The notes beneath the pieces were generated by a model, which was not told the origin of the DNA, ran no database searches, and saw only the letters and a program-made list of their open reading frames with translations. The translations under genes were made by a program, and so were the position numbers. DNA of 64,000 nucleotides from a virus: the IMG/VR virus record IMGVR_UViG_3300031800_000001, positions 1 to 64,000 of that record; one strand, given 5' to 3'. Numbering within the stretch: the stretch's first letter is position 1; the number at the start of each line of letters is the position of its first letter. Of this stretch, positions 7,064 to 31,256 are shown in pieces.

Positions 7064-8218
7064 GTGAGGATAGAGAACGACATAAAGCTAGACTACAAGG
7101 ATGTCCTTATGCGCCCAAAGCGTTCTACGCTAGAGTCCCGCAAGGATGTTGACTTGATGCGTGAGTTTATTTTTCCTCATGCTGGGGGGAAGGGTGCTGA
7201 CCCTAAAGCCTATGGATGGAAAGGTGTTCCCATCGTAGCTTCAAATATGGATACGGTTGGAACTTTTGAGATGGCTAAAAAACTTGCCGAATACCGTATG
7301 CTTACTTGCATCAGCAAGCACAATGATATAAAAAGATGGCTACACAAGCTGAATGGTTATGGAGTCTATAAAAACCAAGAGCAAAAAGACGGCACGGTTT
7401 GGGAGCATGACCCAAACTCAAAGTGTTCGCACAATAGAATTTATGAGCATATTTCTCCTTCTATTGGTATTAAGTATGACCCAGAAAAGGCCGATGATAT
7501 AGATTATCTCAATAACATTACATGGAACTTTTATCACACACGTTTCGTGTGTATTGATGCGGCAAATGGATACACAGCAAGATTCTGTGACTTCATAAAA
7601 AGAGTTAGAGAAGAACACCCAGCACTCATTATAATAGCTGGGAATGTTGTCACGGGAGAGATGACAGAACAGTTAATTCTAAATGGAGCAGATATTGTCA
7701 AGGTTGGTGTTGGAAGTGGTTCTGTTTGCACTACTCGCATTCAGACTGGTGTTGGTTATCCCCAATTTAGCGCGGTGGTCGAGTGTGCCGATGCCGCTCA
7801 TGGCGTTGGCGGGTATATTATGGCTGATGGCGGTTGTACCTGTGCTGGAGACGTTGCCAAGGCTTTTGGTGGAGGTGCTGATTTTGTCATGCTTGGCGGG
7901 ATGCTGGCTGGACATACGGAGTGCGAAGGACAGGAGGAAGAAATAGGAGGCATCAAATACAAAACCTTCTACGGTATGAGTTCCAAGGATGCTATGGAAA
8001 AACACAGCGGCGGCGTAGCCAAATATAGGAGCGCGGAGGGCAAAACGGTGAGGGTCAAGCACAGGGGGCTTGTTAAAAACACGTTAGAGAGCATCCTCGG
8101 CGGCTTACGGTCTGCCTGTACCTATATTGGAGCGAGAAGGCTAAAGGATATGCCCAAGTGCGCTACTTTTGTGAGAGTAACGCAGCAGTCGAATGAGATT
8201 TACGGAAAGAATACATGA
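7064..8218 (+). CDS. guaC: GMP reductase (IMPDH/GMPR family)
   Basis: The 384-residue TIM-barrel enzyme would reduce GMP to IMP and ammonia with NADPH. Diagnostic blocks are [16 protein letters not shown] at the N-terminus, ASNMDTVG, and GSGSVCTTR with catalytic Cys at about 222. [10 protein letters not shown] and a C-terminal Gly/Arg-rich flap end follow. No CBS pair is inserted, which favours GMP reductase over IMP dehydrogenase. The start is a GTG at 7064, because no in-frame ATG exists before the conserved block. The structured RNA at 6975 lies directly upstream. The next gene overlaps by ATGA. Confidence 0.88.
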
Positions 8219-20139: not shown

Positions 20140-20508
20140 ATGAAGCTAACAGCAAACAAGCTAAAAAACGGTGCTCTGTATTACAACACCAAATCACAAC
20201 GCGTGGAGCGCATGCTCGGCACGCTAAATACTAATCGTGTTTGGACTACCAGTCATGACGCTAGCCCAGAAGCAAACAAGTGCAACAACTTGCGTTTTGC
20301 AAACGGGCAAGAGGTGGACGGCTATCTTCAGGCTAGCCCGAAATGGAACGCAATGAAATCGGAAGAGGTCGAGAGACGGATTGCCGCCGAAGGTGGTGAA
20401 AAGAAGTGGCTCGAAAATGTTTTCGCAATTGCTGACAGGGAATTGCCGCCGTTGCCAACACCACGGCAGGATTCAATATCAAATCCGTTGGGCGCGGCGC
20501 AGCAATAG
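20140..20508 (+). CDS. Protein of unknown function
   Basis: A 122-residue protein whose ATG follows an A-rich, AAGAAAG leader. The N-terminal half (MKLTANKLKNGALYYN, RVERMLG) looks like a small beta domain; the end is Pro/Gln-rich. A GC-rich hairpin follows at 20523. Not recognised. Confidence 0.65.
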   Translation: MKLTANKLKNGALYYNTKSQRVERMLGTLNTNRVWTTSHDASPEANKCNNLRFANGQEVDGYLQASPKWNAMKSEEVERRIAAEGGEKKWLENVFAIADRELPPLPTPRQDSISNPLGAAQQ

Positions 20509-20522
20509 AAGATCCAAATAGA

Positions 20523-20552
20523 AACCCCTAGGGCCCGGGAGGGCCTTAGGGG
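20523..20552. terminator. GC-rich hairpin, possible bidirectional terminator
   Basis: CCCCTAGGGCCC and GGGCC-TTAGGGG pair around GGGA. No strong T-run follows on the plus strand; on the minus strand TTTCTATTT follows, so it may help stop the giant minus-strand RNA. Confidence 0.45.
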
Positions 20553-20567
20553 CGGGGGACAAATAAG

Positions 20568-20640
20568 GCTTGACATCCGCGGGGCGGGGCCCCGGCCTTG
20601 CCGTTTCGGGTTCCCGCTGGCGGAGGTGGATAAGTTTTTA
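20568..20640. repeat. GCTTGAC GC-rich element
   Basis: GCTTGAC starts a GC-rich inverted segment (GGGGCGGGGCCCC and GGGTTCCCGC) ending in GGTGGATAA, an 8-of-9 match to a DnaA-type box. Same architecture as the elements at 18460 and 24679. Confidence 0.5.
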
Positions 20641-20649
20641 ATAAGAAAA

Positions 20650-21400
20650 GGGCGGATTGACGTGGTCAATGCACTTTAATGGACAACCCGACAGTTAAGC
20701 CAAGCCGTAGAATTCTCCAACCCTTTATGCCAACCCGATTTGGGTTAGCAAAAAAACTGAAATTAATGGGTAACAGGACTTCTTGATTACCTGCAACTAC
20801 TTTCGGAGCTAGATCAATGTTCATAGACCCTACAATACTTCGTACTCATCCACATCGCAAAGTCTCTCAACTCGACTCAGGCCCAAGAGATTGGTCGTCT
20901 CCCCCTTCTCGCTTCTGATGCCTTAAGGCTCTTGCAAACCTTTATTCGGCAATACCCGAGGAGCAACCGTCGCTACTCCAAATTGGTAACGGTGTAGGGA
21001 TTCGAACCCCACCAAACCAATATTCACCATCCACTTTCAATGCATCTCCAGCGGCGGCTTTCCTGATAAGGCTGCTTCACCCTGAGAGCTTAATAGCTCA
21101 AAGGTTAGAAGCACCAATTTCACCGTTAAATTTATAGATGTCCACCCGCCATGATGGATAAACCGTAAGTTGTCTTACCAACCCTGTCCCCAGCGGCCTA
21201 TTTGCATAACCGAAAGGGCGATGGAGGCGTTTCTCAGGGGCCATTTTCTGCGAACAGTTGGCCCCGACTCGGCATCTAATCGCTTGAGCCTGTAATCCAG
21301 CACTCAAGCGGTTGTTTCGTTAATCGCGCTGTTTTTCAAGCGCAGTTTTCGGAAACTAAAATTTTCTTTCAAAGAGCGGATTGAGCGTTTCCCAATCACT
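20650..21400 (-). ncRNA. Giant structured non-coding RNA (about 750 nt)
   Basis: No frame on either strand is credible here, yet a strong minus-strand promoter fires into it (21435-21407). The RNA is rich in clear hairpins. Examples are CGCTTGAG/CTCAAGCG (21310-21281), GGGGCCA/TGGCCCC closing a CTG-TTCG-CAG tetraloop (21265-21237), GTAAG-ACAA-CTTAC (21178-21165) and GGTAA/TTACC (20791-20769). A tRNA-like domain lies in the middle. Length, phage context, nearby tRNAs and an embedded tRNA-like part recall the GOLLD and ROOL giant RNAs of phages; membership is not shown here. The 3' end is uncertain. Confidence 0.7.
20984..21127 (-). ncRNA. tRNA-like domain with encoded CCA and expanded core
   Basis: On the minus strand AACGGTG (21127-21121) pairs over 7 bp with CACCGTT (20994-20988), followed by discriminator A and CCA. 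The T arm is TGGGG-TTCGAAT-CCCTA. Instead of D and anticodon arms there are about 110 bases with a GAGC-TATTAA-GCTC hairpin. At 144 nt it is too long for a tRNA, and no tmRNA-type tag frame or GGTTTCGA motif follows the 5' arm. Confidence 0.65.
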
Positions 21401-21406
21401 TTATCT

Positions 21407-21435
21407 ATTATAGACCCATTCTATGTTTGAGTCAA
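21407..21435 (-). promoter_or_regulatory. Strong minus-strand promoter of the giant RNA, TAGAAT-spacer class
   Basis: On the minus strand: TTGACT, 17-base spacer with TAGAAT at positions 7-12, and a perfect TATAAT. Predicted start about 21400. It lies within the end of the upstream minus-strand gene. Confidence 0.82.
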
Positions 21436-21618
21436 GATTTTTTTCAATTTCTTTTTGATGTAAGAGTAATCCTTGGCGCGGTTTACTATTACAGGAAAAT
21501 CGTCGTTTGCCTCACCCCAATACCAGTATTTTGCTGGTATGATTAGGGAGTAGTATTTGCTCTTGCCATTGTAATTGATATATGGCCCCTCTTTAGCTCT
21601 GTACATAACTGTATTCAT
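21421..21618 (-). CDS. Small protein, unknown function
   Basis: A 65-residue basic protein rich in Tyr, Lys and Trp. The ATG at 21618 lies two bases after the predicted +1; an in-frame TTG further upstream would sit in the -10. It is divergent from the gene at 21717 and precedes the giant RNA. Not recognised. Confidence 0.6.
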   Translation of the reverse strand: MNTVMYRAKEGPYINYNGKSKYYSLIIPAKYWYWGEANDDFPVIVNRAKDYSYIKKKLKKILTQT

Positions 21619-21626
21619 CTGTGTCA

Positions 21627-21655
21627 ATTATACGGTAATTCTAATTCACAGGCAA
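21627..21655 (-). promoter_or_regulatory. Minus-strand early promoter, TAGAAT-spacer class
   Basis: On the minus strand: TTGCCT, 17-base spacer with TAGAAT at positions 7-12, TATAAT. It faces away from the plus-strand promoter at 21682, forming a divergent pair. Confidence 0.75.
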
Positions 21656-21665
21656 GCCCTTTCTT

Positions 21666-21674
21666 TGTGAATAA
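21666..21674. promoter_or_regulatory. DnaA-type box between divergent promoters
   Basis: TGTGAATAA, the reverse of TTATTCACA. Confidence 0.5.
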
Positions 21675-21681
21675 GTTTGTA

Positions 21682-21710
21682 TTGCATGAAAGATAGAATG
21701 ATAGTATTCT
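21682..21710 (+). promoter_or_regulatory. Early promoter, TAGAAT-spacer class, leaderless
   Basis: TTGCAT, 17-base spacer with TAGAAT at positions 7-12, TATTCT. The ATG at 21717 is exactly the predicted +1. Confidence 0.76.
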
Positions 21711-22992: not shown

Positions 22993-23252
22993 GTCAATCA
23001 TTTTTCGCGCTTTTTGATCGTCAAACTTTTTTGTCGATCACTCGTGATCGGCTAATTTGTTAGTCAAGCGTGAGTCAAGTTATCTGTCAATCAATTAGGC
23101 CCTTTAATCGCGTTTAATGAGGGTAATTGTTTTGAAGAATAACACTGTTTTTGTGGGGTATAGTGCCTGAAAATTTCTTGTTTACCCCCGCTTTCTCCGA
23201 TGTGAAATTCGTTGATTTTAAGAAATTGTGAACAGTGTGAGTAAGTTAGGTA
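22979..23252. repeat. Gene-free region with GTCAA repeats
   Basis: GTCAA occurs at 22979, 22993, 23020, 23063, 23074 and 23086, with GTCGA at 23033. The last three are 11 and 12 bases apart, near one helical turn. GATCACTCGTGATC (23036-23049) is a palindrome. No gene is visible; a binding region for a repeat-recognising protein is possible. Confidence 0.45.
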
Positions 23253-24314: not shown

Positions 24315-24377
24315 CGGGGACCCGCAAGCGGGGTCCCCGCCGACTTATTCACAGTCAAGCTTTTTTTTCGTGAATAA
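24315..24377. terminator. GC-rich hairpin with DnaA-type box and T-run
   Basis: CGGGGACCCGC-AAG-CGGGGTCCCCG is a perfect hairpin. It is followed by TTATTCACA (24345-24353), GTCAAGC, T8 and CGTGAATAA; the outer TTATTCAC/GTGAATAA also pair. Confidence 0.7.
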
Positions 24378-24403
24378 CTTTTCCTTGTAATTTTCAACCA
24401 ATC

Positions 24404-24412
24404 TGATATACT
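24404..24412 (+). promoter_or_regulatory. Extended -10 promoter, leaderless
   Basis: TGATATACT; the ATG at 24419 is exactly at the predicted +1. Confidence 0.6.
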
Positions 24413-24418
24413 TTTCAA

Positions 24419-24661
24419 ATGATGAATGACCTACATGACATGATTCGGGTTTCCTGCGAGGAAGCCGTCACCGAGGACATGGGCCCTGCCACTTGGGCAA
24501 ATGAGCCCGAGCAGCCCCAGCCCGAGCCCTCCCACAGGGAGCAGCATGGGCGGTGCGAGGATGCGCCTTGCTGCGGGTGCTGTGGTGACGGCATGGAGGA
24601 TGGCTATGGCTCACCCGCTGATGATGCATGGCATGATGCCAATGAGTACCCAGACTGGTAG
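24419..24661 (+). CDS. Small Cys-rich acidic protein
   Basis: An 80-residue protein with a Pro/Glu-rich middle and CEDAPCCGCCGDG near 46-58, a dense Cys cluster suited to metal binding. It has higher GC than its neighbours. The final codons (TACCCAGACTGG) and the following GCCTGTGGATAA are repeated at 27526, where the rest of the gene is absent. Confidence 0.6.
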   Translation: MMNDLHDMIRVSCEEAVTEDMGPATWANEPEQPQPEPSHREQHGRCEDAPCCGCCGDGMEDGYGSPADDAWHDANEYPDW

Positions 24662-24664
24662 GCC

Positions 24665-24739
24665 TGTGGATAACTTTAGCTTGACGCCTCGGCGGGGGCC
24701 CCGAGTTATTCACAATGTCAAGCCCCTTTTGTGAATACT
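24665..24739. repeat. DnaA-type boxes with GCTTGAC...GTCAAGC element
   Basis: TGTGGATAA (24665-24673, perfect box on the minus strand) is followed by GCTTGAC (24679-24685), a GC-rich hairpin, TTATTCACA (24706-24714), GTCAAGC (24717-24723) and TGTGAATAC. The promoter of the next gene begins at 24756. Confidence 0.65.
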
Positions 24740-24755
24740 TTGTATAAGTTCACCC

Positions 24756-24784
24756 TTGACAAACAGGGTTTTTCGTGTTATATT
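24756..24784 (+). promoter_or_regulatory. TTGACA/TATATT promoter, leaderless
   Basis: TTGACA, 17 bases, TATATT; ATG at 24791 at +1. The -10 to ATG stretch is nearly identical to those at 18563 and 30038. Confidence 0.78.
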
Positions 24785-24790
24785 ATAACA

Positions 24791-24994
24791 ATGAAAGACG
24801 AACTATTCAAAGTAAAAATCGCCCTATGGCGCAAGGGCTTCAAGGGTTGCCCTTCTACCCAGCGTGAAACCCACATCAAGGCATTTGACTTGGCACACGC
24901 CAAGAGGATTAGTAACCGCCTATTCGGGACGCTAGGGGTAACAGTTGAACCCGTAGAAGGACGATTTGAAAGATTCAAAGAATTTAACAGGTAG
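24791..24994 (+). CDS. Small basic protein, paralogue of the gene at 28944
   Basis: A 67-residue protein with FKVKIALWR, then A.DLAHAKRISNRL and VTVEPVEG, matching the order FKVTFKW, A.HALRIASRWG, IESVEF in the gene at 28944. A beta-alpha-beta mini-domain is likely. Its TAG stop lies inside the palindromic element E1. Function unknown. Confidence 0.65.
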   Translation: MKDELFKVKIALWRKGFKGCPSTQRETHIKAFDLAHAKRISNRLFGTLGVTVEPVEGRFERFKEFNR

Positions 24995-25035
24995 GACGGC
25001 AGATGTCCCACCCTCTATGCTATACTCTACGCATG
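24990..25035 (+). promoter_or_regulatory. Cassette element E1 (palindrome plus leaderless promoter)
   Basis: GGTAGGAC and GTCCCACC form an imperfect palindrome. TGCTATACT (extended -10) follows, and the ATG at 25033 is at +1. Six copies of this 46-base element occur between 24990 and 30315. Confidence 0.75.
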
Positions 25036-25230
25036 AAAGAAATTAAGAATATGAAAAACGAAGCAATAAAAGTAAACGACAGAATCCAATGCAAGTCTCC
25101 GGGAAATCAAGGCGGCGTGATTGTCGGCATTGACACCGTGATGCACCTTGCCCTTGTCCGCTGGGATAACATCTTCACTAGTGAAATTATCGAGGCATGG
25201 GCAGGATTAGACGGTATTGAAAAAGTTTAA
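25033..25230 (+). CDS. Small protein with KOW-like pattern
   Basis: A 65-residue protein: after a basic start, IKVNDRIQCKSPGNQGGVIVGID resembles a KOW-like beta turn, and the rest is beta-rich. Function unknown. Start set by element E1. Confidence 0.6.
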   Translation: MKEIKNMKNEAIKVNDRIQCKSPGNQGGVIVGIDTVMHLALVRWDNIFTSEIIEAWAGLDGIEKV

Positions 25231-25231
25231 C

Positions 25232-25277
25232 GGTAGGACGGCAGATGTCCCACCCCCTGTGCTATACTAGACGCATG
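25232..25277 (+). promoter_or_regulatory. Cassette element E2
   Basis: Same palindrome as E1, extended -10 TGCTATACT, then AGACGC and the ATG at 25275 at +1. Confidence 0.75.
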
Positions 25278-25454
25278 ATTAAAACAGATATGAAAGCAAG
25301 AGAATACACGAACCTACTACTAGAGCGCATTGAAGATGGCTCATATGATAAAGACCAAGTGATTATGGCTTGCGTTAAGTACATGAGTGAAGTTGACGTG
25401 GAGGACATGATGCAATGCAATGGAATGTTATTTGATGAGGACACGGAGAATTAA
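25275..25454 (+). CDS. Small acidic protein, paralogue of the gene at 28660
   Basis: A 59-residue protein; YTNLLLERIEDG.YDKDQVIMACVKYMSE is shared almost unchanged with the gene at 28660. The first six codons (MIKTDM) belong to the shared cassette start. Helical; function unknown. Confidence 0.65.
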   Translation: MIKTDMKAREYTNLLLERIEDGSYDKDQVIMACVKYMSEVDVEDMMQCNGMLFDEDTEN

Positions 25455-25464
25455 ATTAAGAATT

Positions 25465-25540
25465 ACACGGGAATGTTCCAAGGTGGCGACAGAGTCTCCA
25501 AAACTCCGTGAGGTAGGTTCGATTCCTGCCCCGTGTGCCA
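25465..25540 (+). tRNA. tRNA-Trp (anticodon CCA)
   Basis: A 76-base cloverleaf: ACACGGG/CCCGTGT acceptor, D stem TGTT/GACA, anticodon loop CTCCAAA reading CCA, T arm GTAGG-TTCGATT-CCTGC, discriminator G as expected for Trp, encoded CCA. It would read the single UGG codon. Confidence 0.9.
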
Positions 25541-25549
25541 TTTAAGATT

Positions 25550-25783
25550 ATGAAAAAGAAAATGAAAACTTACAAGGTAGAGTTTAGGACAGCATTCGCT
25601 GGCTCGCCCTTCGTTCCAATCGTCCTTGAAGCAAAAGACGAAAACCAAGCCCAATGGGTTGCCCGCAACCTTTGCCGCTTTGGATACATTAGTGCCGCCC
25701 CAGTGGTTGTAGATGATGAGCCGTATTATACGGAAGCAACTCACGATTGGGCTTACGATGAAAATTACGAAGTTTATAGCTAG
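25550..25783 (+). CDS. Small protein, unknown function
   Basis: A 77-residue protein with a beta-alpha pattern (YKVEFRTAFAGSPFVPIVLEAKDENQAQWVARNL) like small phage alpha/beta folds, and an acidic, aromatic tail. It starts 9 bases after the tRNA. An earlier tRNA-overlapping frame start is not credible. Confidence 0.65.
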   Translation: MKKKMKTYKVEFRTAFAGSPFVPIVLEAKDENQAQWVARNLCRFGYISAAPVVVDDEPYYTEATHDWAYDENYEVYS

Positions 25784-25793
25784 AAAGAAAATT

Positions 25794-26054
25794 ATGAAAG
25801 AATACGAAGCAACCTATACAAACGAAAGCCCGCAGGAATATCCCAACGGCAAGGTAACACTCGGCAGCGAGCCTCTTGAGCCATACGGTACGGTGACGTA
25901 TCACATTATGAATTGGCATTCATTTGATGATTTAGGCACGACAATGGAAACAGTCCAAGTGTGGAATCCTAAAACTAAAAGACTGTTTGAAATTTATTCA
26001 ACCGATGAAGGCGAGACTTTTACCTTCACTCAACCGGAACCTTACTTGGCATAA
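25794..26054 (+). CDS. Protein of unknown function
   Basis: An 86-residue acidic beta-rich protein (YEATYTNESP, VTLGSEPLEPYGTVTYHIMNW). The start AAAATTATG is the common start context of this zone. Not recognised. Confidence 0.6.
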   Translation: MKEYEATYTNESPQEYPNGKVTLGSEPLEPYGTVTYHIMNWHSFDDLGTTMETVQVWNPKTKRLFEIYSTDEGETFTFTQPEPYLA

Positions 26055-26058
26055 GATT

Positions 26059-26277
26059 ATGATAAAGAACGGAAAAAAACAAAACGTAGTGCCGACCAGC
26101 AGAGAGCAAAATCTTGCCTGTGCCAAGTTAGAGATTTCCTACCCTATGGCTTGCTTGTTATTCAAGCGGCTACAGTGGGCCAACAACATGGGAACGGGTG
26201 AGGATGATTATAATGTTCTTGAAGCTCATTTTATTGAGAAGCAGGGAACGCATAATTATATTAAGGAGGGATTTTAA
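26059..26277 (+). CDS. Protein of unknown function
   Basis: A 72-residue protein with a basic start, two Cys and a helical centre. The start context (AGATTATG) matches its neighbours. AAGGAGGG near its end is the ribosome site of the next peptide. Confidence 0.55.
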   Translation: MIKNGKKQNVVPTSREQNLACAKLEISYPMACLLFKRLQWANNMGTGEDDYNVLEAHFIEKQGTHNYIKEGF

Positions 26278-26278
26278 T

Positions 26279-26389
26279 ATGAAAGATGATTTCAGAGATA
26301 TTTATTTTGTTCTTATTATTGGCATCGCATCATTTTTTATTATATTAGCGGCGGGTATTTATAGTACGCTGCGATACGGTAGTTTTTAG
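26279..26389 (+). CDS. 36-residue membrane peptide
   Basis: AAGGAGGG precedes the ATG at good spacing. One hydrophobic span (YFVLIIGIASFFIILAAGIY) with charged N-terminal residues. Function unknown. Confidence 0.6.
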   Translation: MKDDFRDIYFVLIIGIASFFIILAAGIYSTLRYGSF

Positions 26390-26545
26390 AATTATGAAAA
26401 CAAAAAAACTCCAAATAAAAAAAAACTCCAAATAAATAGACTATGCAAATATGTAAATGAATATTTTTTGCAAAAAACAGGCAAAAATGGGGCCCCCGAA
26501 GTTATTCACAATGCCAAAGGTTTTTGTGAATACTTTGGATAAGTA
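26390..26545. repeat. Gene-free stret with GC hairpin and DnaA-type box
   Basis: ACTCCAAATAAA occurs twice (about 26408 and 26427) around a 13-codon remnant frame. Then GGGGCCCCC (26489-26497), TTATTCACA (26502-26510) and TGTGAATAC (26525-26533) give the usual cassette layout before the promoter at 26551. Confidence 0.5.
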
Positions 26546-26550
26546 CACCA

Positions 26551-26579
26551 TTGACAAACCCCTTTTTGTGTGGTATATT
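26551..26579 (+). promoter_or_regulatory. Promoter of structured RNA and tRNA-Thr
   Basis: TTGACA, 17 bases, TATATT; predicted start about 26586. Here no ATG follows; the structured RNA begins at once. Confidence 0.75.
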
Positions 26580-26585
26580 TAAGTA

Positions 26586-26715
26586 GTTCGTGAGGGTAGT
26601 GAGGTGAACGGAGCCAAGAGCCCCCTATGATGCGCCAAGCTACCTCTCACGAATGCCACCTCTGCAAACGGTGAGGAAACATAAGAACGCAAGAGACGTT
26701 TGTATTTCAGTGGCA
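26586..26715 (+). ncRNA. Structured RNA upstream of tRNA-Thr
   Basis: Two large domains: TTCGTGAG-GGTAG (26587-26599) pairs with CTACC-T-CTCACGAA (26640-26653), and TGCCAC (26654-26659) pairs with GTGGCA (26710-26715) around an inner GCAAACG/CGTTTGT helix (26664-26703). The tRNA starts 10 bases later on the same transcript. No reading frame explains it and no known class is recognised. Confidence 0.65.
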
Positions 26716-26725
26716 CAATTTATTA

Positions 26726-26801
26726 GCCAGATTAGCTCAGTTGGTAGAGCAGCAGTTTTGTAACCTGCAGGCCACCCGTTCAAGTCGGGTATCTGGCTCC
26801 A
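26726..26801 (+). tRNA. tRNA-Thr (anticodon TGT)
   Basis: A 76-base cloverleaf: GCCAGAT/ATCTGGC acceptor, D stem GCTC/GAGC, anticodon loop TTTGTAA reading TGT, T arm ACCCG-TTCAAGT-CGGGT, encoded CCA. The lowest anticodon-stem pair is a T-C mismatch, the only flaw. Confidence 0.9.
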
Positions 26802-26808
26802 GATTTTA

Positions 26809-26854
26809 GGTAGGACTACGGATGTCCCACCCCCTGTGCTATACTAGACGCATG
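26809..26854 (+). promoter_or_regulatory. Cassette element E3
   Basis: GGTAGGAC/GTCCCACC palindrome directly after tRNA-Thr, TGCTATACT, AGACGC and the ATG at 26852 at +1. Here the palindrome may also end the tRNA transcript. Confidence 0.75.
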
Positions 26855-27154
26855 ATTAAAACGAATATGAAAAACAAAAAAGAAACCCATTGCCCGCCTC
26901 TGCTTTCCACGCAGGTGCTTCTCAACAACGAAGTCAAAGTCACTTCCATCGCTAGTCAATTTCACGGTCAAACTGGAATCGTCAACGCTATCATGGCTGA
27001 TGGCCGCACTCTTGAAGTTGACTTCGGCAAAGCCAAGGTTGCTTTCATCGACGTCACCCTAGTGAGTGAGATTCAAGAGCAAACCTATTTCGCCAAGACC
27101 GAGCAAAGTCTTGGCCCTGACGCAAACAGCGTTTTACCTCAGAACAGGCTTTAA
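26852..27154 (+). CDS. KOW-like small protein, paralogue of the gene at 29164
   Basis: A 100-residue protein. After the cassette start MIKTNMKNK, the body VKVTSIASQFHGQTGIVNAI..DGRTLEVDFG has the KOW-like G.G.V turn. VSEIQEQTYFAK and LGPDANSV are shared almost exactly with the gene at 29164. Likely a small beta-barrel; KOW domains often bind RNA or ribosomes, which is inference here. Confidence 0.65.
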   Translation: MIKTNMKNKKETHCPPLLSTQVLLNNEVKVTSIASQFHGQTGIVNAIMADGRTLEVDFGKAKVAFIDVTLVSEIQEQTYFAKTEQSLGPDANSVLPQNRL

Positions 27155-27158
27155 GATT

Positions 27159-27440
27159 ATGAGAAACATCATCAACGCAAACAACGAAGATTCAACCGAA
27201 CCCTTTGCAGTAGCTCTGCACGTCATCCTGCGCAACTTCTGGGAGTATTACCTAGAAGAGCCAGACGAAAACGGCATTGCCTTTGGCTATGTCATGGGAT
27301 TTGAAAATGAATGGGGCAGCGTTTACTTACCGGAACTCAAGCCGTACATCGTAAGCATTGCACGAGGCAAGGAGCTTGATTACATAATGCCACCCGAAGG
27401 ATATTATTGGGAAAACGAAAATGAATTTGACGTTGACTGA
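27159..27440 (+). CDS. Protein of unknown function
   Basis: A 93-residue acidic protein with aromatic clusters (NFWEYYLEEPDENG) and an acidic tail. Start context TTAAGATTATG. Not recognised. Confidence 0.6.
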   Translation: MRNIINANNEDSTEPFAVALHVILRNFWEYYLEEPDENGIAFGYVMGFENEWGSVYLPELKPYIVSIARGKELDYIMPPEGYYWENENEFDVD

Positions 27441-27525
27441 GTAATCGGGCATCGTTGAGCCTGTCGCCCTCGTGGCGGTGGTAAAGGGTTGCTCGCTGAT
27501 GGCGGCAACCCCGCTCTCAATTTAT
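27441..27525 (+). other. Hairpin-rich gene-free segment
   Basis: GGGTTGC pairs with GCAACCC (27486-27511) and CGCC-CTCGT-GGCG lies just upstream. It may be a small RNA or the decayed front of the gene remnant that follows; no promoter is evident. Confidence 0.3.
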
Positions 27526-27540
27526 TACCCAGACTGGTGA
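27526..27540 (+). pseudogene. 3' remnant of a duplicated gene
   Basis: TACCCAGACTGGT followed by GAGCCTGTGGATAA is almost identical to the end of the gene at 24419 and the sequence after it. No upstream coding part remains. Confidence 0.4.
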
Positions 27541-27543
27541 GCC

Positions 27544-27629
27544 TGTGGATAAGTTTTCCTTGACGCCCCCGGCGGGGGACCCGGACTTATTCACAATGCA
27601 AGCTTATTTTGTGAATTGTGTGTGAATAA
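27544..27629. repeat. DnaA-type boxes with GC-rich hairpin
   Basis: TGTGGATAA (27544-27552), a CTTGAC-led GC-rich core, TTATTCACA (27587-27595) and TGTGAATAA (27621-27629). Three exact TTATNCACA matches in 86 bases. Confidence 0.65.
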
Positions 27630-27659
27630 GTTTATCTCGCCTTTTCCGTTTTTTTAAGG

Positions 27660-27665
27660 TATACT
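27660..27665 (+). promoter_or_regulatory. -10 element TATACT
   Basis: TATACT precedes the gene at 27691 with a predicted 19-base leader; GTTTTTTTAAG upstream gives no clear -35. Confidence 0.4.
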
Positions 27666-27690
27666 TTACGTATTGAAAGTGAGAGACGCA

Positions 27691-27852
27691 ATGACTGAAG
27701 AACAAAAGAGAGAAGAGCAACGCAAGACAGAGAACCGCTTGCAGCGTTGGAATGAATCCGTTGCGAAGGTGCAAGCCCTCCAAGCGGCGTGGCAGAGAGA
27801 AGAACTTGCCCGCAATCCCAACAAGGTTTTCTTAAAAGAATTTAACAGGTAG
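27691..27852 (+). CDS. Small charged helical protein
   Basis: A 53-residue, highly charged helical protein (MTEEQKREEQRKTENRLQRW). Its last codons AAAGAATTTAACAGGTAG are shared with the gene at 24791 because both run into the cassette element, so the repeat includes coding sequence. Function unknown. Confidence 0.55.
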   Translation: MTEEQKREEQRKTENRLQRWNESVAKVQALQAAWQREELARNPNKVFLKEFNR

Positions 27853-27893
27853 GACTGCGGATGTCCCACCTCGTGTGGTATACTAGACGCATG
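27848..27893 (+). promoter_or_regulatory. Cassette element E4
   Basis: GGTAGGAC/GTCCCACC palindrome, TGGTATACT, AGACGC, ATG at 27891 at +1. Confidence 0.75.
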
Positions 27894-28073
27894 ATTAAAA
27901 CGAATATGAAAAACAAAAACGAAAAAACAGTGAAAGTCTCGCGGGTCAATCAGGCCACGGGCAAACGGGAAACCGTTTCAATCCCAGCAAGTGAGTGGAA
28001 CAACGCCGGACAAAGCCGCGTGAATGCTCTCATTCAACAAAGCGTGGACTACGCAAACAAAGTCGAGAGGTAG
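27891..28073 (+). CDS. Small protein, unknown function
   Basis: A 60-residue protein: cassette start MIKTNMKNKNE, then a basic strand (VKVSRVNQATGKRETVSIPASEW) and a short helix. Its stop lies in element E5. Not recognised. Confidence 0.6.
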   Translation: MIKTNMKNKNEKTVKVSRVNQATGKRETVSIPASEWNNAGQSRVNALIQQSVDYANKVER

Positions 28074-28114
28074 GACGGCAGATGTCCCACCTCGTATGCT
28101 ATACTAGACGCAGT
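28069..28114 (+). promoter_or_regulatory. Cassette element E5 (ATG lost)
   Basis: Same palindrome and TGCTATACT as the other copies, but the base after AGACGC begins AGTTAG instead of ATG. The gene therefore starts at the second conserved ATG, 28130, with an 18-base leader. Confidence 0.7.
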
Positions 28115-28129
28115 TAGAAGATAAAGAAT

Positions 28130-28297
28130 ATGAAAAACAAAAATGAAAACACAAACGAGCTGACCTTCAGAGGTTGGCACAGTGACGAAAACGAAACCTT
28201 CACGGGTGTTCGCAATGACAGTTTCGGCAATGATTGCCGTGACCACGACCAAGATGCTTGGAATTTCGAGATTGACGAAACCGATTGCTGGAAGTAA
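28130..28297 (+). CDS. Small acidic protein, unknown function
   Basis: A 55-residue protein starting with the cassette block MKNKNE and then an acidic, Asp/Asn-rich body with two Cys and several Trp. This copy shows that the second ATG of the cassette can serve as a start. Not recognised. Confidence 0.55.
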   Translation: MKNKNENTNELTFRGWHSDENETFTGVRNDSFGNDCRDHDQDAWNFEIDETDCWK

Positions 28298-28302
28298 AAA
28301 TT

Positions 28303-28497
28303 ATGAAACACAACATCCAAAACGCAAGCGCGTTCAAAACTAAACAACTCGGCGACAAGCTCAACAAAGTAATTGAGCGAATCCCGAAACTCAAACTAAC
28401 AAGAGACGACGAGGATATGCTTCACATCGTTGCGCTCATCACCTTTATTGTAACACTACTCGGCACAGCACTTGTGATTTTAGCATTGGCATTTTAA
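28303..28497 (+). CDS. Small C-terminally anchored membrane protein
   Basis: A 64-residue protein with a basic helical N-terminus and one membrane span at about 41-63 (HIVALITFIVTLLGTALVI). Function unknown. Confidence 0.6.
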   Translation: MKHNIQNASAFKTKQLGDKLNKVIERIPKLKLTRDDEDMLHIVALITFIVTLLGTALVILALAF

Positions 28498-28499
28498 TT

Positions 28500-28658
28500 A
28501 TGATAGTAGAAAACAAACAGATAAAAGTAGGCGATGAGATTCGCTTTGGAATGCAGCTAATGATAGTTGATGAGATTACAGAATTTAACACCATCATTGC
28601 AGTTGATGAAGATGGACAAGATTTAGAACTGACAGAGAATGAAATTGATATTTATTAA
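28500..28658 (+). CDS. Small acidic beta-rich protein
   Basis: A 52-residue protein (MIVENKQIKVGDEIRFG, MIVDEI) with the look of a tiny beta-barrel, similar in style to KOW-like phage proteins. It starts two bases after the previous stop. Unknown function. Confidence 0.55.
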   Translation: MIVENKQIKVGDEIRFGMQLMIVDEITEFNTIIAVDEDGQDLELTENEIDIY

Positions 28659-28659
28659 G

Positions 28660-28818
28660 ATGATGAAAACTAGAAAATACACAAACCTACTACTGGAGCG
28701 CATTGAAGATGGCCTGTATGATAAAGACCAAGTGATTATGGCTTGCGTTAAGTATATGAGCGAGGACGACGTGCAGGATATGATGGATTGCAATGGCCTG
28801 TTATTTGATGAGGATTAA
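28660..28818 (+). CDS. Paralogue of the gene at 25275
   Basis: A 52-residue protein sharing YTNLLLERIEDG.YDKDQVIMACVKYMSE with the gene at 25275, with nearly identical DNA, so the duplication is recent. This copy lacks the cassette start and instead follows the previous gene directly. A second ATG one codon in could be the start. Confidence 0.6.
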   Translation: MMKTRKYTNLLLERIEDGLYDKDQVIMACVKYMSEDDVQDMMDCNGLLFDED

Positions 28819-28845
28819 AGTTAATAACTTTTGTTTGACAAAAAT

Positions 28846-28902
28846 CGGGGACCCGCCGAGTTATTCACAATGCAAGCTTATTTTGTGAATACTTTGAATA
28901 AC
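28846..28902. repeat. GC hairpin with DnaA-type box
   Basis: CGGGGACCCG, TTATTCACA (28861-28869), GCAAGC and TGTGAATAC (28884-28892), the cassette layout before the promoter at 28910. Confidence 0.55.
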
Positions 28903-28909
28903 TACACCC

Positions 28910-28938
28910 TTGACAAACGGGGTTTTTTGTGGTATATT
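28910..28938 (+). promoter_or_regulatory. TTGACA/TATATT promoter, leaderless
   Basis: TTGACA, 17 bases, TATATT; the ATG at 28944 falls within one base of +1. Confidence 0.75.
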
Positions 28939-28943
28939 TAGGT

Positions 28944-29096
28944 ATGGTAAACGAAGAAAGCATCTACAAAGTGACCTTCAAATGGACAGGTCAAAATGAG
29001 TTTGTGAAAGCTCGCAACGAAGCCCACGCGCTGCGCATCGCCTCCCGTTGGGGAGCCATTGAATCAGTCGAATTCGACTGTGAGGAATGTGAATAA
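28944..29096 (+). CDS. Paralogue of the gene at 24791
   Basis: A 50-residue protein (YKVTFKWTGQNEFVKARNEA, HALRIASRWGAIESVEF) matching the gene at 24791. It ends with four acidic or Cys residues and stop, the last three codons being TGTGAATAA, a DnaA-type box. Function unknown. Confidence 0.6.
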   Translation: MVNEESIYKVTFKWTGQNEFVKARNEAHALRIASRWGAIESVEFDCEECE

Positions 29097-29163
29097 GTTT
29101 ATCTCGCCTTTTGGGCGAATTCATGAGACAATATAAACAGTTAAGAGAAAGAAAATTAAGAAT

Positions 29164-29433
29164 ATGAAAAAAGAAAACAACATCACAGAAGCACAACTCC
29201 TGCTGAATCAGGAAATCGTCGTCACCTCTCACCTCTCACGTTTCACAGGCCGCAAGGGTCGCGTGAATGCCATCTCGGCAGATGGTCGCAGCCTAGACGT
29301 TACCCTCGAAGGCGTGGGCGATGTATTCCTAGACGTTTCCCTCGTGGGTGAAATCCAAGAGCAAACCTATTTCGCCAAAGGTGAAGCAGACCTCGGCCCA
29401 ATCGCCAACAGCGTTGTGCAAGCCCACAAGTAA
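29164..29433 (+). CDS. KOW-like small protein, paralogue of the gene at 26852
   Basis: An 89-residue protein with VVTSHLSRFTGRKGRVNAIS.DGRSLDVTL and VGEIQEQTYFAK, parallel to the gene at 26852. AAGAGAAAGAAAATTAAGAAT precedes the ATG, so this copy has a leader and lacks the cassette element. Confidence 0.65.
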   Translation: MKKENNITEAQLLLNQEIVVTSHLSRFTGRKGRVNAISADGRSLDVTLEGVGDVFLDVSLVGEIQEQTYFAKGEADLGPIANSVVQAHK

Positions 29434-29454
29434 AAACTCAAACCTTAAAAAATT

Positions 29455-29667
29455 ATGACTAAACAACATTTCGAATTTGTCGCCTCACTAATCAACGCCG
29501 CTACCAAAGGCGTTGCACCTCAACACCTCGCCATCTTGGCCGCTGCCAAGTTCACGAAGGACAACCCACGCTTTGACAAGGGGCGTTTCTATAACGCTTG
29601 CGGGTTATGCTCTGACGGCACTCCCAAGGTCGCGAAGATGTACGGATTGGAAAATCACGCACTATGA
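29455..29667 (+). CDS. Small basic protein, unknown function
   Basis: A 70-residue protein with an Ala-rich helix followed by FDKGRFYNACGLCSDG, a possible two-Cys site. It overlaps the next peptide by 4 bases. Not recognised. Confidence 0.6.
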   Translation: MTKQHFEFVASLINAATKGVAPQHLAILAAAKFTKDNPRFDKGRFYNACGLCSDGTPKVAKMYGLENHAL

Positions 29668-29735
29668 AAATGAATATTGACAGGCAATGCCTTTACGGAA
29701 TATTTATAGCAATTATTTTAATATTAACCAACTAA
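29664..29735 (+). CDS. 23-residue membrane peptide
   Basis: ATGA overlap with the previous gene; one hydrophobic run (LYGIFIAIILILTN). Plausible through coupling, otherwise weakly supported. Confidence 0.4.
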   Translation: MKMNIDRQCLYGIFIAIILILTN

Positions 29736-29740
29736 AAATT

Positions 29741-29923
29741 ATGAAAAAAAACAACCTACCCGTTATTGGTAAAATCCAAGACGTCAACGACGAAGCCAAC
29801 AAACTTTTCAGAGATAAAGTTATGATGCCAATGGTCACATTTGCTGTGACAATTATGTTCGTTGCAATCATCCTTGACTATGGCTTCCAACTTATTGACG
29901 CAATCGACATTCTGTGCCAGTAA
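29741..29923 (+). CDS. Small membrane protein
   Basis: A 60-residue protein with a polar first half and one span at about 30-48 (MVTFAVTIMFVAIILDYGF). Start context AAAAATTATG. Function unknown. Confidence 0.6.
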   Translation: MKKNNLPVIGKIQDVNDEANKLFRDKVMMPMVTFAVTIMFVAIILDYGFQLIDAIDILCQ

Positions 29924-29928
29924 GTTTT

Positions 29929-29997
29929 ACTTGACACCTCAACCCCAAAAATGGGGCCCCCGAAGTTATTCACATGTCAAGCGCTTTTTGTGAATAA
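29929..29997. repeat. GC hairpin with paired DnaA-type boxes
   Basis: ACTTGACA, CCCC/GGGG hairpin, TTATTCACA (29966-29974), TGTCAAGC and TGTGAATAA (29989-29997). The two boxes are inverted and 14 bases apart. Confidence 0.65.
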
Positions 29998-30014
29998 CTT
30001 GAATAAGTTCACCA

Positions 30015-30043
30015 TTGACAAACCGCTCTTTTTGTGTTATATT
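30015..30043 (+). promoter_or_regulatory. TTGACA/TATATT promoter, leaderless
   Basis: TTGACA, 17 bases, TATATT; ATG at 30050 exactly at +1. Confidence 0.78.
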
Positions 30044-30049
30044 ATAACA

Positions 30050-30274
30050 ATGGAAACGATAATGATTAGCCCGACGAACAAAGCAAGCCAACGCACAAAG
30101 AACCGCATCCGTGAGAATGGGCCTGTGTTCAGTATCGACTTGAAGGAGGAAACGCAATGGCTCTTAAGGGCTGGCGTATCATTCAACGGAATCGTCTGGA
30201 TGGGCTGGCTACCTCGCAACGAATTCCACGTTGAATGCGTGGGCAAAAAGTTTATTGAAAAGGTTTTAGGGTAG
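30050..30274 (+). CDS. Small protein, unknown function
   Basis: A 74-residue basic protein with a beta-rich centre (FSIDLKEETQWLLRAGVSFNG, IVWMGWLP). The promoter fixes the ATG at 30050. Its stop lies in element E6. Not recognised. Confidence 0.6.
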   Translation: METIMISPTNKASQRTKNRIRENGPVFSIDLKEETQWLLRAGVSFNGIVWMGWLPRNEFHVECVGKKFIEKVLG

Positions 30275-30315
30275 GACGGCAGATGTCCCACCCACTGTGT
30301 TATACTATACTTATG
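30270..30315 (+). promoter_or_regulatory. Cassette element E6
   Basis: GGTAGGAC/GTCCCACC palindrome, TGTTATACT, ATACTT, ATG at 30313 at +1. Confidence 0.72.
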
Positions 30316-30567
30316 ATTATGAAAGACAACAAAGCAAACAACTTGCGCGAGGGCGCAATCTACATTAACGCCAACTCCGGCACGCCTTGCCGCTTGGTCA
30401 ACATCGTACCCTGTGAAGGTGCGTGGCTAGAAACCTTTGACGGCCAAGGCTACGGTGACACCGTAAAATTTGAGGATGTGCATTATGCAGATTCTGATGA
30501 TGTCCAAGATTTTTTGGAAGACCATCGCGTTTATAACGCAAGTGAGAAAGCTCCAAGCAGGGATTAA
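30313..30567 (+). CDS. Small acidic protein, unknown function
   Basis: An 84-residue protein: REGAIYINANSGTPCRLVNIVP resembles a small beta-barrel start, followed by an acidic region. A second ATG two codons in is equally placed. Not recognised. Confidence 0.6.
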   Translation: MIMKDNKANNLREGAIYINANSGTPCRLVNIVPCEGAWLETFDGQGYGDTVKFEDVHYADSDDVQDFLEDHRVYNASEKAPSRD

Positions 30568-30828: not shown

Positions 30829-31256
30829 GGGGGCGTACTGGTTTCGATTTGAAGCTTTACGCCAGATTGCAAGTAGAGGATGACGGTTGGCCTCTTAAAA
30901 AAACTGTCAAAAACATATATGCCAATGATGACATTGACATGGAGATGGCCCTTTCTGTAGACGAGGCTGACGAGATTCTCGCCAAGTTCGGATACGTTGA
31001 GGAGGAAGCCCTCTTGCTGGCAGTTTAAACCTGCCCCGTCCTACTCTGGATGCTCGTTAAAGAGCTAGGGCGTCGACAGCGAGCAAAAAACTGGACAGAT
31101 GAAGGGAGCCAGTATAAATAATCTCTTCATAAGTTCGCACAGGTCGGTTAGTCAAGTGACCCACCAACGCGAGTAAGAAATAATACTTGACTAAGCTTGT
31201 AGTATATCTGTCTGACGGTTTTGAAGACGTGGGTTCGACTCCCACCGCCTCCACCA
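30829..31256 (+). ncRNA. ssrA: Phage tmRNA with a 35-codon tag
   Basis: A 428-nt tmRNA, which frees stalled ribosomes by trans-translation. The 5' GGGGGCG (30829-30835) pairs with CGCCTCC (31246-31252), followed by A and CCA. TACTGGTTTCGATT follows the 5' arm, and the T arm is GTGGG-TTCGACT-CCCAC. The tag begins at GCC 30921 with Ala-Asn-Asp, as in the E. coli tag, and runs 35 codons to TAA at 31026. The stop lies in a GGCAG/CTGCC hairpin, again as in E. coli. The tag ends LLLAV rather than LAA. Bacterial tags are usually about 8-15 residues, so this one is exceptionally long. Confidence 0.9.

Follow-up and report, generated by a model that had tools for sequence, protein, structure and literature searches.

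A covarying tRNA-like domain ahead of exchangeable RNA modules in a group of uncultivated phages

The phage RNAs GOLLD and ROOL are found near tRNA islands and form cages, and for GOLLD it has been described that the linker may hold tRNAs and that the conserved part is the 3' region (PMC12286853). Another point of reference is manA, which, like wcaG, was proposed as a cis-regulatory element and riboswitch candidate (PMC2864571), and whose Rfam model, RF01745, has the type Cis-reg. A preliminary description of the RNA studied here had pointed to features shared with GOLLD and ROOL, without deciding between one of these and a new class. We found no Rfam match of this kind at E ≤ 5 over positions 20400-21700, nor at E ≤ 0.1 in homologues. 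The description of a large minus-strand phage RNA with a tRNA-like domain was nevertheless supported, with covarying homologues, and the analogy was apt, though membership in GOLLD or ROOL fails.

The DNA analyzed (64,000 nucleotides, hereafter the window) covers the first 64 kb of a record of 116 kb from an uncultivated phage, and carries genes for RIIA/RIIB, terminase, portal, and a phage-encoded tmRNA. A tblastn search with the portal gave no match among GenBank phages (50,697 records), so the phage group is absent from these, while portal relatives were present in 50 uncultivated contigs. Comparing the RNAs by blastn with GenBank phages and with plasmids gave zero matches. The close relatives G002 and G008 (94% portal) end at ~24.3 and ~28.8 kb and were unusable for the RNA locus. 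Short interspersed intergenic repeats were also observed at 24336-30330 of the window (e.g., near 24989, 25232, 26490, 26807, 27526, 28859, and 29954), and the contigs of close relatives break off near them.

From its sequence features, the minus strand from 21407 to 20650 is predicted to be a non-coding transcription unit behind TTGACT-17-TATAAT, containing a tRNA-like domain (TLD). The features are as follows:

21407-21435, minus strand: sigma70-type promoter TTGACT-17-TATAAT, 11 of 12 consensus positions, expected start at ~21400
21369-21397, minus strand: hairpin GATTGGG-AAACG-CTCAATC, then boxA-like GCTCTTTGA (21377-21369), from the sequence
21128-21400, minus strand: 5' domain, otherwise lineage-specific
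20984-21127, minus strand: whole TLD, from covariation; 141 bits with the covariance model R1, which includes the window sequence
21121-21127, minus strand: 5' strand of the acceptor stem, AACGGTG, pairing with CACCGTT at 20994-20988 (7 of 7)
21112-21120, minus strand: D-loop-like AAATTGGTG with no D stem, in the same or a near form in 7 of 7 sequences, TGGT invariant
21073-21113, minus strand: arm X, in the position of the anticodon arm, of variable length, stem TGCTTC/GAAGCA, from covariation
21012-21071, minus strand: structured "variable arm" of ~60 nt with a conserved core, from alignment and covariation
20995-21011, minus strand: T arm TGGGG-TTCGAAT-CCCTA, with a covarying T stem and invariant GGTTC
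20980-20994, minus strand: 3' strand of the acceptor stem, CACCGTT, then ACCA and an ATTT trailer (ANCAATT(T) in relatives except L361)
20763-20979, minus strand: manA-type RNA domain (RF01745; cmscan 20977-20763, 34.6 bits, E = 6.1e-7)
20650-20762, minus strand: 3' tail with hairpins at 20750-20728 and 20670-20656, from folding; its 3' end is undefined

The promoter had already been noted in the preliminary description, as had ~750 nt without a credible gene, and both were confirmed: neither strand has a convincing frame, the longest one on the minus strand inside the unit being a TTG ORF of 69 aa. Promoters also precede the corresponding unit in the relatives L429 (TTGACA-18-TATTAT) and L430 (TTGACT-17-TATATT). 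The predicted minimum free energy was -255.4 kcal/mol for 761 nt (z = -3.2; 0 of 20 shuffles as low), and 16 hairpins of at least 6 bp were found, compared to 7.1 ± 3.1 in shuffles, 1% of which reach 16. Together with stems of 8 to 10 bp at 20750-20728, 20979-20960, and 20708-20683, this excess agrees with the many clean hairpins reported earlier. A reported 7-bp stem on a UUCG loop is present as GGGGCCA/UGGCCCC, but it encloses an inner CUG-UUCG-CAG and does not close UUCG directly. The RNA is large and structured, but "giant" was overstated, as ~750 nt is reached in the window member only, and the L110 relative, judged from its promoter and conserved 3' end, measures ~0.5 kb.

The leader hairpin with boxA-like GCTCTTTGA resembles the antitermination leader of rRNA operons, and a role in antitermination may be proposed on this likeness. 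The boxA-like GTTCTTTGA is present in L110, L380, L361, and L393, and YTCTTTGA, also boxA-like, lies upstream of the TLD in four of six independent lineages; over both strands of the 64-kb window, GCTCTTTGA and GTTCTTTGA have one occurrence each. Further into the 5' domain, the core TGCTGGRTTACAGGC...AAGCGA of the hairpin at 21310-21281 (CGCTTGAGTGCTGGATTACAGGCTCAAGCG) recurs in L361. No canonical terminator was found at the 3' tail of the window RNA, and no same-strand gene follows for over 2 kb, the next genes lying on the opposite strand.

Several observations were made around the unit. A small ORF of about 65 aa (MNTVMYRAKEGPYINYNGKSK...) occupies 21421-21618 on the minus strand; a promoter-like site precedes it at 21655-21627, and its stop codon is within the promoter of the RNA. 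The gp88 gene lies near the RNA in the window, and a protein similar by eye is encoded just upstream in L429; gp88 as a search bait did not recover the RNA locus. A non-coding block at 23000-23170 (plus strand), with the shared sequence GTCGATCA.TCGTGA.CGGCTAATT ... GAGGGTAATTGTTTTG.A.ATAA.ACTGTTTT.GTGGG.TAT, corresponds to 1590-1770 of L110, where it is directly 3' of the RNA; in other relatives, the RNA has similar GATCG-rich pieces beside it.

Homologues of the TLD were retrieved with patterns built from the D-loop-like stretch, the GGAAAGC core, and the T loop. These scans, which miss divergent members, gave L110, L357, L361, and L380 first and L386, L393, and L395 next, all seven from uncultivated phage records. 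The portal is 50 to 56% identical to that of the window in six of them, the seventh record being a 17-kb fragment, and in each of the six the RNA lies 15 to 27 kb upstream of the portal. The exact 3' end of the TLD as bait returned no homologue, and the core-plus-T-arm pattern gave 15 chance hits in 84,980 prokaryote genomes, all without the rest of the domain. Weak matches to R1 (17 to 32 bits) were rejected as TLDs, most of them coinciding with ordinary tRNAs or tmRNA and the one in L434 (24.9 bits) missing the T arm; this model gives only approximate E-values, and the sequences on which it was trained necessarily match it.

For an alignment of seven complete sequences (170 columns), RNAalifold predicted the acceptor stem, arm X, and the T arm, and, in the stretch separating the latter two, a long helix with an inner one. 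Paired cells made up 95.5% in this structure and 29 to 44% when partners were slid by 1 to 3 columns, a measure that is favored by the structure being partly derived from the tested alignment. Changes on both sides were found at 13 of 35 pairs, compared to 6.8 in shuffles, with 0 shuffles matching the observed value on any measure, and they were plain in the acceptor, arm X, the long helix, the inner helix, and the T stem. Covarying homologues, which had been named beforehand as a check on the RNA, are thus present, and the seven homologous sequences elsewhere together with covariation indicate that the TLD is far beyond chance.

The acceptor and T stems form a 12-bp stack that is present and covarying. 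Acceptor positions 1 to 3 vary and covary, positions 4 to 7 are invariant GGTG/CACC, and the first pair is A-G in L110, L380, and L361. Within arm X, four of the six pairs are changed on both sides among the seven sequences, and the variable arm of the relatives has the helices CCTGAC-CAG/CTG-GTCGGG and GCC-CTAGT/GCTAG-GGT. The acceptor-like 7-bp stem (7 of 7 pairs) and the T arm at 21011-20995 were found as first described, with ~109 nt between them for the ~110 bases given. These bases had been taken to stand in place of D and anticodon arms, a view that missed the structured variable arm of which the insert consists. An encoded CCA is present in the window, as ACCA at 20987-20984, but is not conserved; the relatives have mostly ACA, one has GCA, and one has none. 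The trailer ANCAATTT resembles or matches ACCAATTT, which also follows phage tmRNA genes. It was also observed, when window 20995-21071 and its equivalent in L110 were considered, that relatives offer two alternative, tandem partners to the CCTGAC of their core, GTCGGG and, in the T stem, GTCAGG, a possible conformational switch.

The variable-arm core is 98 to 100% identical among the six relatives, whose portals are mostly 51 to 61% identical (one pair, 93%), and over the whole TLD most of the distant pairs share 64 to 81%. The core of the window is 69% identical to those of the relatives, with its inner helix fully paired and two mismatches in its closing helix. Such near identity suggests either extreme constraint or recent spread among the six relatives.

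Neither ARAGORN nor Rfam at gathering thresholds found a tRNA or any other family over the TLD. It lacks the cloverleaf of tRNA model RF00005, with its D arm and anticodon arm, and its match to mascRNA (RF01684) is weak, at 22.4 bits against a gathering threshold of 42.5. A tRNA interrupted by a group I intron was rejected, as the insert is too short and a model match is absent. The tmRNA model RF00023 finds only 30829-31256 in the window (plus strand), which is a true phage-encoded tmRNA with the tag EADEILAKFGYVEEEALLLAV and the trailer ACCAATTT, as at the TLD. By the tests made, the window RNA is not a tRNA, tmRNA, mascRNA, GOLLD, or ROOL.

While the TLD is kept, the 3' part is exchanged among members. 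In the window it is the manA-type domain, whose P1 hairpin GGAGTAGC-GACG-GTTGCTCC begins 4 nt after ACCA. P1, the GGG/CCC closing stem, GAAUAA, UAAGG, and GGUA..CA..AA.UCC are all found, the copy lacks an internal helix that the model has, and with no same-strand gene following, it is not in the position of a cis-regulatory 5' UTR. Its 34.6 bits are below the RF01745 gathering threshold of 55.2, which is exceeded by the same-place domains of L110 (77.5) and L380 (59.7), and because of these we take the window copy for a divergent homologue, on grounds of position and motif, though its score does not make it a member. A motif scan across loci showed the same T arm directly 5' of the manA RNA in L110. 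Both this divergent manA in the 3' 215 nt and the modularity of the unit had been missed in the preliminary description. A genome search with RF01745 missed the window's own copy, and its negatives were therefore not used. A second 3' domain is common to L357 and L393 (75% over 516 nt including the TLD) and a third to L361 and L386, in which CCTCGCC/GGCGAGG changes to CCTGACC/GGTCAGG; both are non-coding. In L395, a reading frame begins within 30 nt after the TLD. At this locus (L395:2073-2400) the TLD begins at the expected start site, and the ORF encodes a cysteine-rich small protein (MMNDKCKCGGCGAPV...).

Cyanophage-type manA has a -10 box that puts the start site at P1 in 75 of 87 distinct loci, as against 4% for random positions. 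In four of the 87, a tRNA-Thr ends 18 to 19 nt before GGGAGTG, one hairpin upstream, although there are few such cases, perhaps from a single lineage. The different phage L140 (37-kb record) has an array of tRNA-Pro, manA, and tRNA-Thr at 7328-7664 with <12 nt between neighbors, and its manA is probably a free-standing, processed RNA. Judging from the promoter, tRNA, and L140 layouts, tRNA, TLD, and start site share one position relative to manA, and the start-site, tRNA-Thr, and L140 arrangements suggest that manA requires a free 5' end, which it would owe to a start site, a tRNA, or the TLD. A strict 5'-end rule of this kind is not noted in the sections of the manA papers considered here.

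Our inference is that the TLD acts as a processing element of the tRNA type and sets the 5' end of the downstream RNA. Transcription from the strong promoter and past the boxA-like antitermination site would yield a transcript of about 0.5 to 0.75 kb, in which the TLD, with a coaxial acceptor/T stem, a D/T-loop elbow, and a ~60-nt variable arm replacing anticodon function, would be directly 5' of an exchangeable RNA. RNase P accepts an acceptor-T stem stack. The host's RNase P would cut at the 5' side of the acceptor and its tRNA 3'-end nucleases at the trailer, freeing the manA-type RNA and fixing its 5' end, a task that falls to a tRNA or a transcription start in other phages, and the excised tRNA-like piece would stay as a stable RNA whose conserved arm may bind a putative partner. 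Processing by host tRNA enzymes is favored because of the need of manA for a free 5' end, the tmRNA-like trailer, and the RNase P substrate rule. Against it, processing alone does not call for a 53-nt core with almost no variation, L110, L380, and L361 have A-G as their first acceptor pair, the last of them also being without an NCA trailer, and the TLD of L395 precedes a reading frame, a case in which it does not serve to free a non-coding RNA. The reading we tentatively prefer is nonetheless that of a new modular class of non-coding phage RNA, whose TLD is cut by host tRNA enzymes to free manA and then persists to bind a partner; we would place it a little short of probable.

The main rival is that the TLD works first of all in trans, as a tRNA mimic bound by a host or phage protein or by the ribosome, with the conserved arm as effector and processing secondary; candidate partners would be a tRNA-modifying or -cleaving enzyme, EF-Tu, or a tRNA-targeting defense nuclease. 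It draws on a core with 98 to 100% identity next to portals of mostly 51 to 61%, which is more constraint than a processing signal needs, and on conservation of the elbow elements (T loop and D-loop GG). The partner is so far only putative, however, the fixed position before exchangeable RNAs is left unexplained, and with free variation at the acceptor end and in arm X, neither aminoacylation nor anticodon identity is kept; we regard this explanation as rather unlikely. That the core is a mobile cassette, current or recent, spread between phages with the surrounding RNA incidental, would account for its near identity, and the inner core helix is indeed without compensatory change among the six relatives, though the flanking helices have them. 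Yet the core is always at the same place within the same TLD, its pattern with the T arm was not found in the prokaryote genomes, and the window copy has drifted to 69% with its inner helix kept fully paired through compensatory changes, which makes a cassette improbable.

A cis-regulatory leader or riboswitch, as in the classification of manA by Rfam and Weinberg et al. 2010, would fit the Rfam type, the proposed riboswitch candidacy (PMC2864571), the reading frame behind the L395 TLD, and the many cyanophage manA RNAs behind promoters. Since the next downstream genes in the window are on the opposite strand and the L140 manA lies between two tRNAs, these arrangements argue against such a role for those copies, and the next gene in L110 has its own promoter; the explanation is quite improbable for the RNA as a whole. 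A GOLLD- or ROOL-like RNA assembling into a multimer or cage would agree with the phage location, size, and tRNA association, the GOLLD linker being able to carry tRNAs, but the Rfam models do not match, the relatives measure only about 0.5 kb, and members exchange their 3' part whereas the 3' region of GOLLD is conserved (PMC12286853), so that we consider it very improbable. The T arm and acceptor and the weak mascRNA match could finally recall a decayed ordinary tRNA beside unrelated sequence, an idea refuted by the same non-tRNA insert being conserved and covarying in seven genomes.

Returning to processing by host tRNA enzymes, a broader statement of it, that the TLD is a phage RNA module of a categorically new sort, a tRNA mimic whose structured variable arm hardly varies and which stands before interchangeable non-coding RNAs, both processing them and acting on a conserved host target, with manA RNAs being free-standing and end-processed and not riboswitch-like leaders, is possible but doubtful. 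With the TLD, a covarying family of RNAs with a tRNA-like fold is added that had not been described; the job proposed for it, the making of RNA ends via host tRNA enzymes, can be tested directly, and manA, an orphan family of 2010 with an unproven role, would be tied to tRNA-type 5' ends rather than to cis-regulation. That the core is nearly identical in phages that have otherwise diverged suggests a partner, from host or phage, under strong constraint, and a TLD kept while the following RNA is swapped among relatives speaks for a phage RNA module of a new kind.

Compared with known systems, the window RNA is, like GOLLD and ROOL, a long structured phage RNA associated with tRNAs, but a sequence or structure match to them is absent, and it is modular rather than one conserved fold. 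Its 3' domain shares with manA, which occurs in marine phages, the P1 with a GACG loop, the GGG..CCC closing pairing, and the sequence motifs given above, and differs in scoring below the gathering cut-off, in standing behind a TLD and not at a start site, and in not being a 5' UTR. The TLD itself resembles a class II tRNA in its 7-bp acceptor, T arm, D-loop GG, and an arm that lies between the stem in the anticodon position and the T arm, whereas a D stem and anticodon loop are absent and the variable arm is a ~60-nt multi-helix structure. With the tRNA-like domain of tmRNA it has in common a D loop without a D stem, an elbow, a long insert, and the ACCAATTT trailer, but not a tag reading frame or a P2 around the insert. 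The 3' end of MALAT1, where RNase P cuts the tRNA-like element of mascRNA, is eukaryotic and lacks the variable-arm core, and like the TLD it is a tRNA-like element within a long non-coding RNA.
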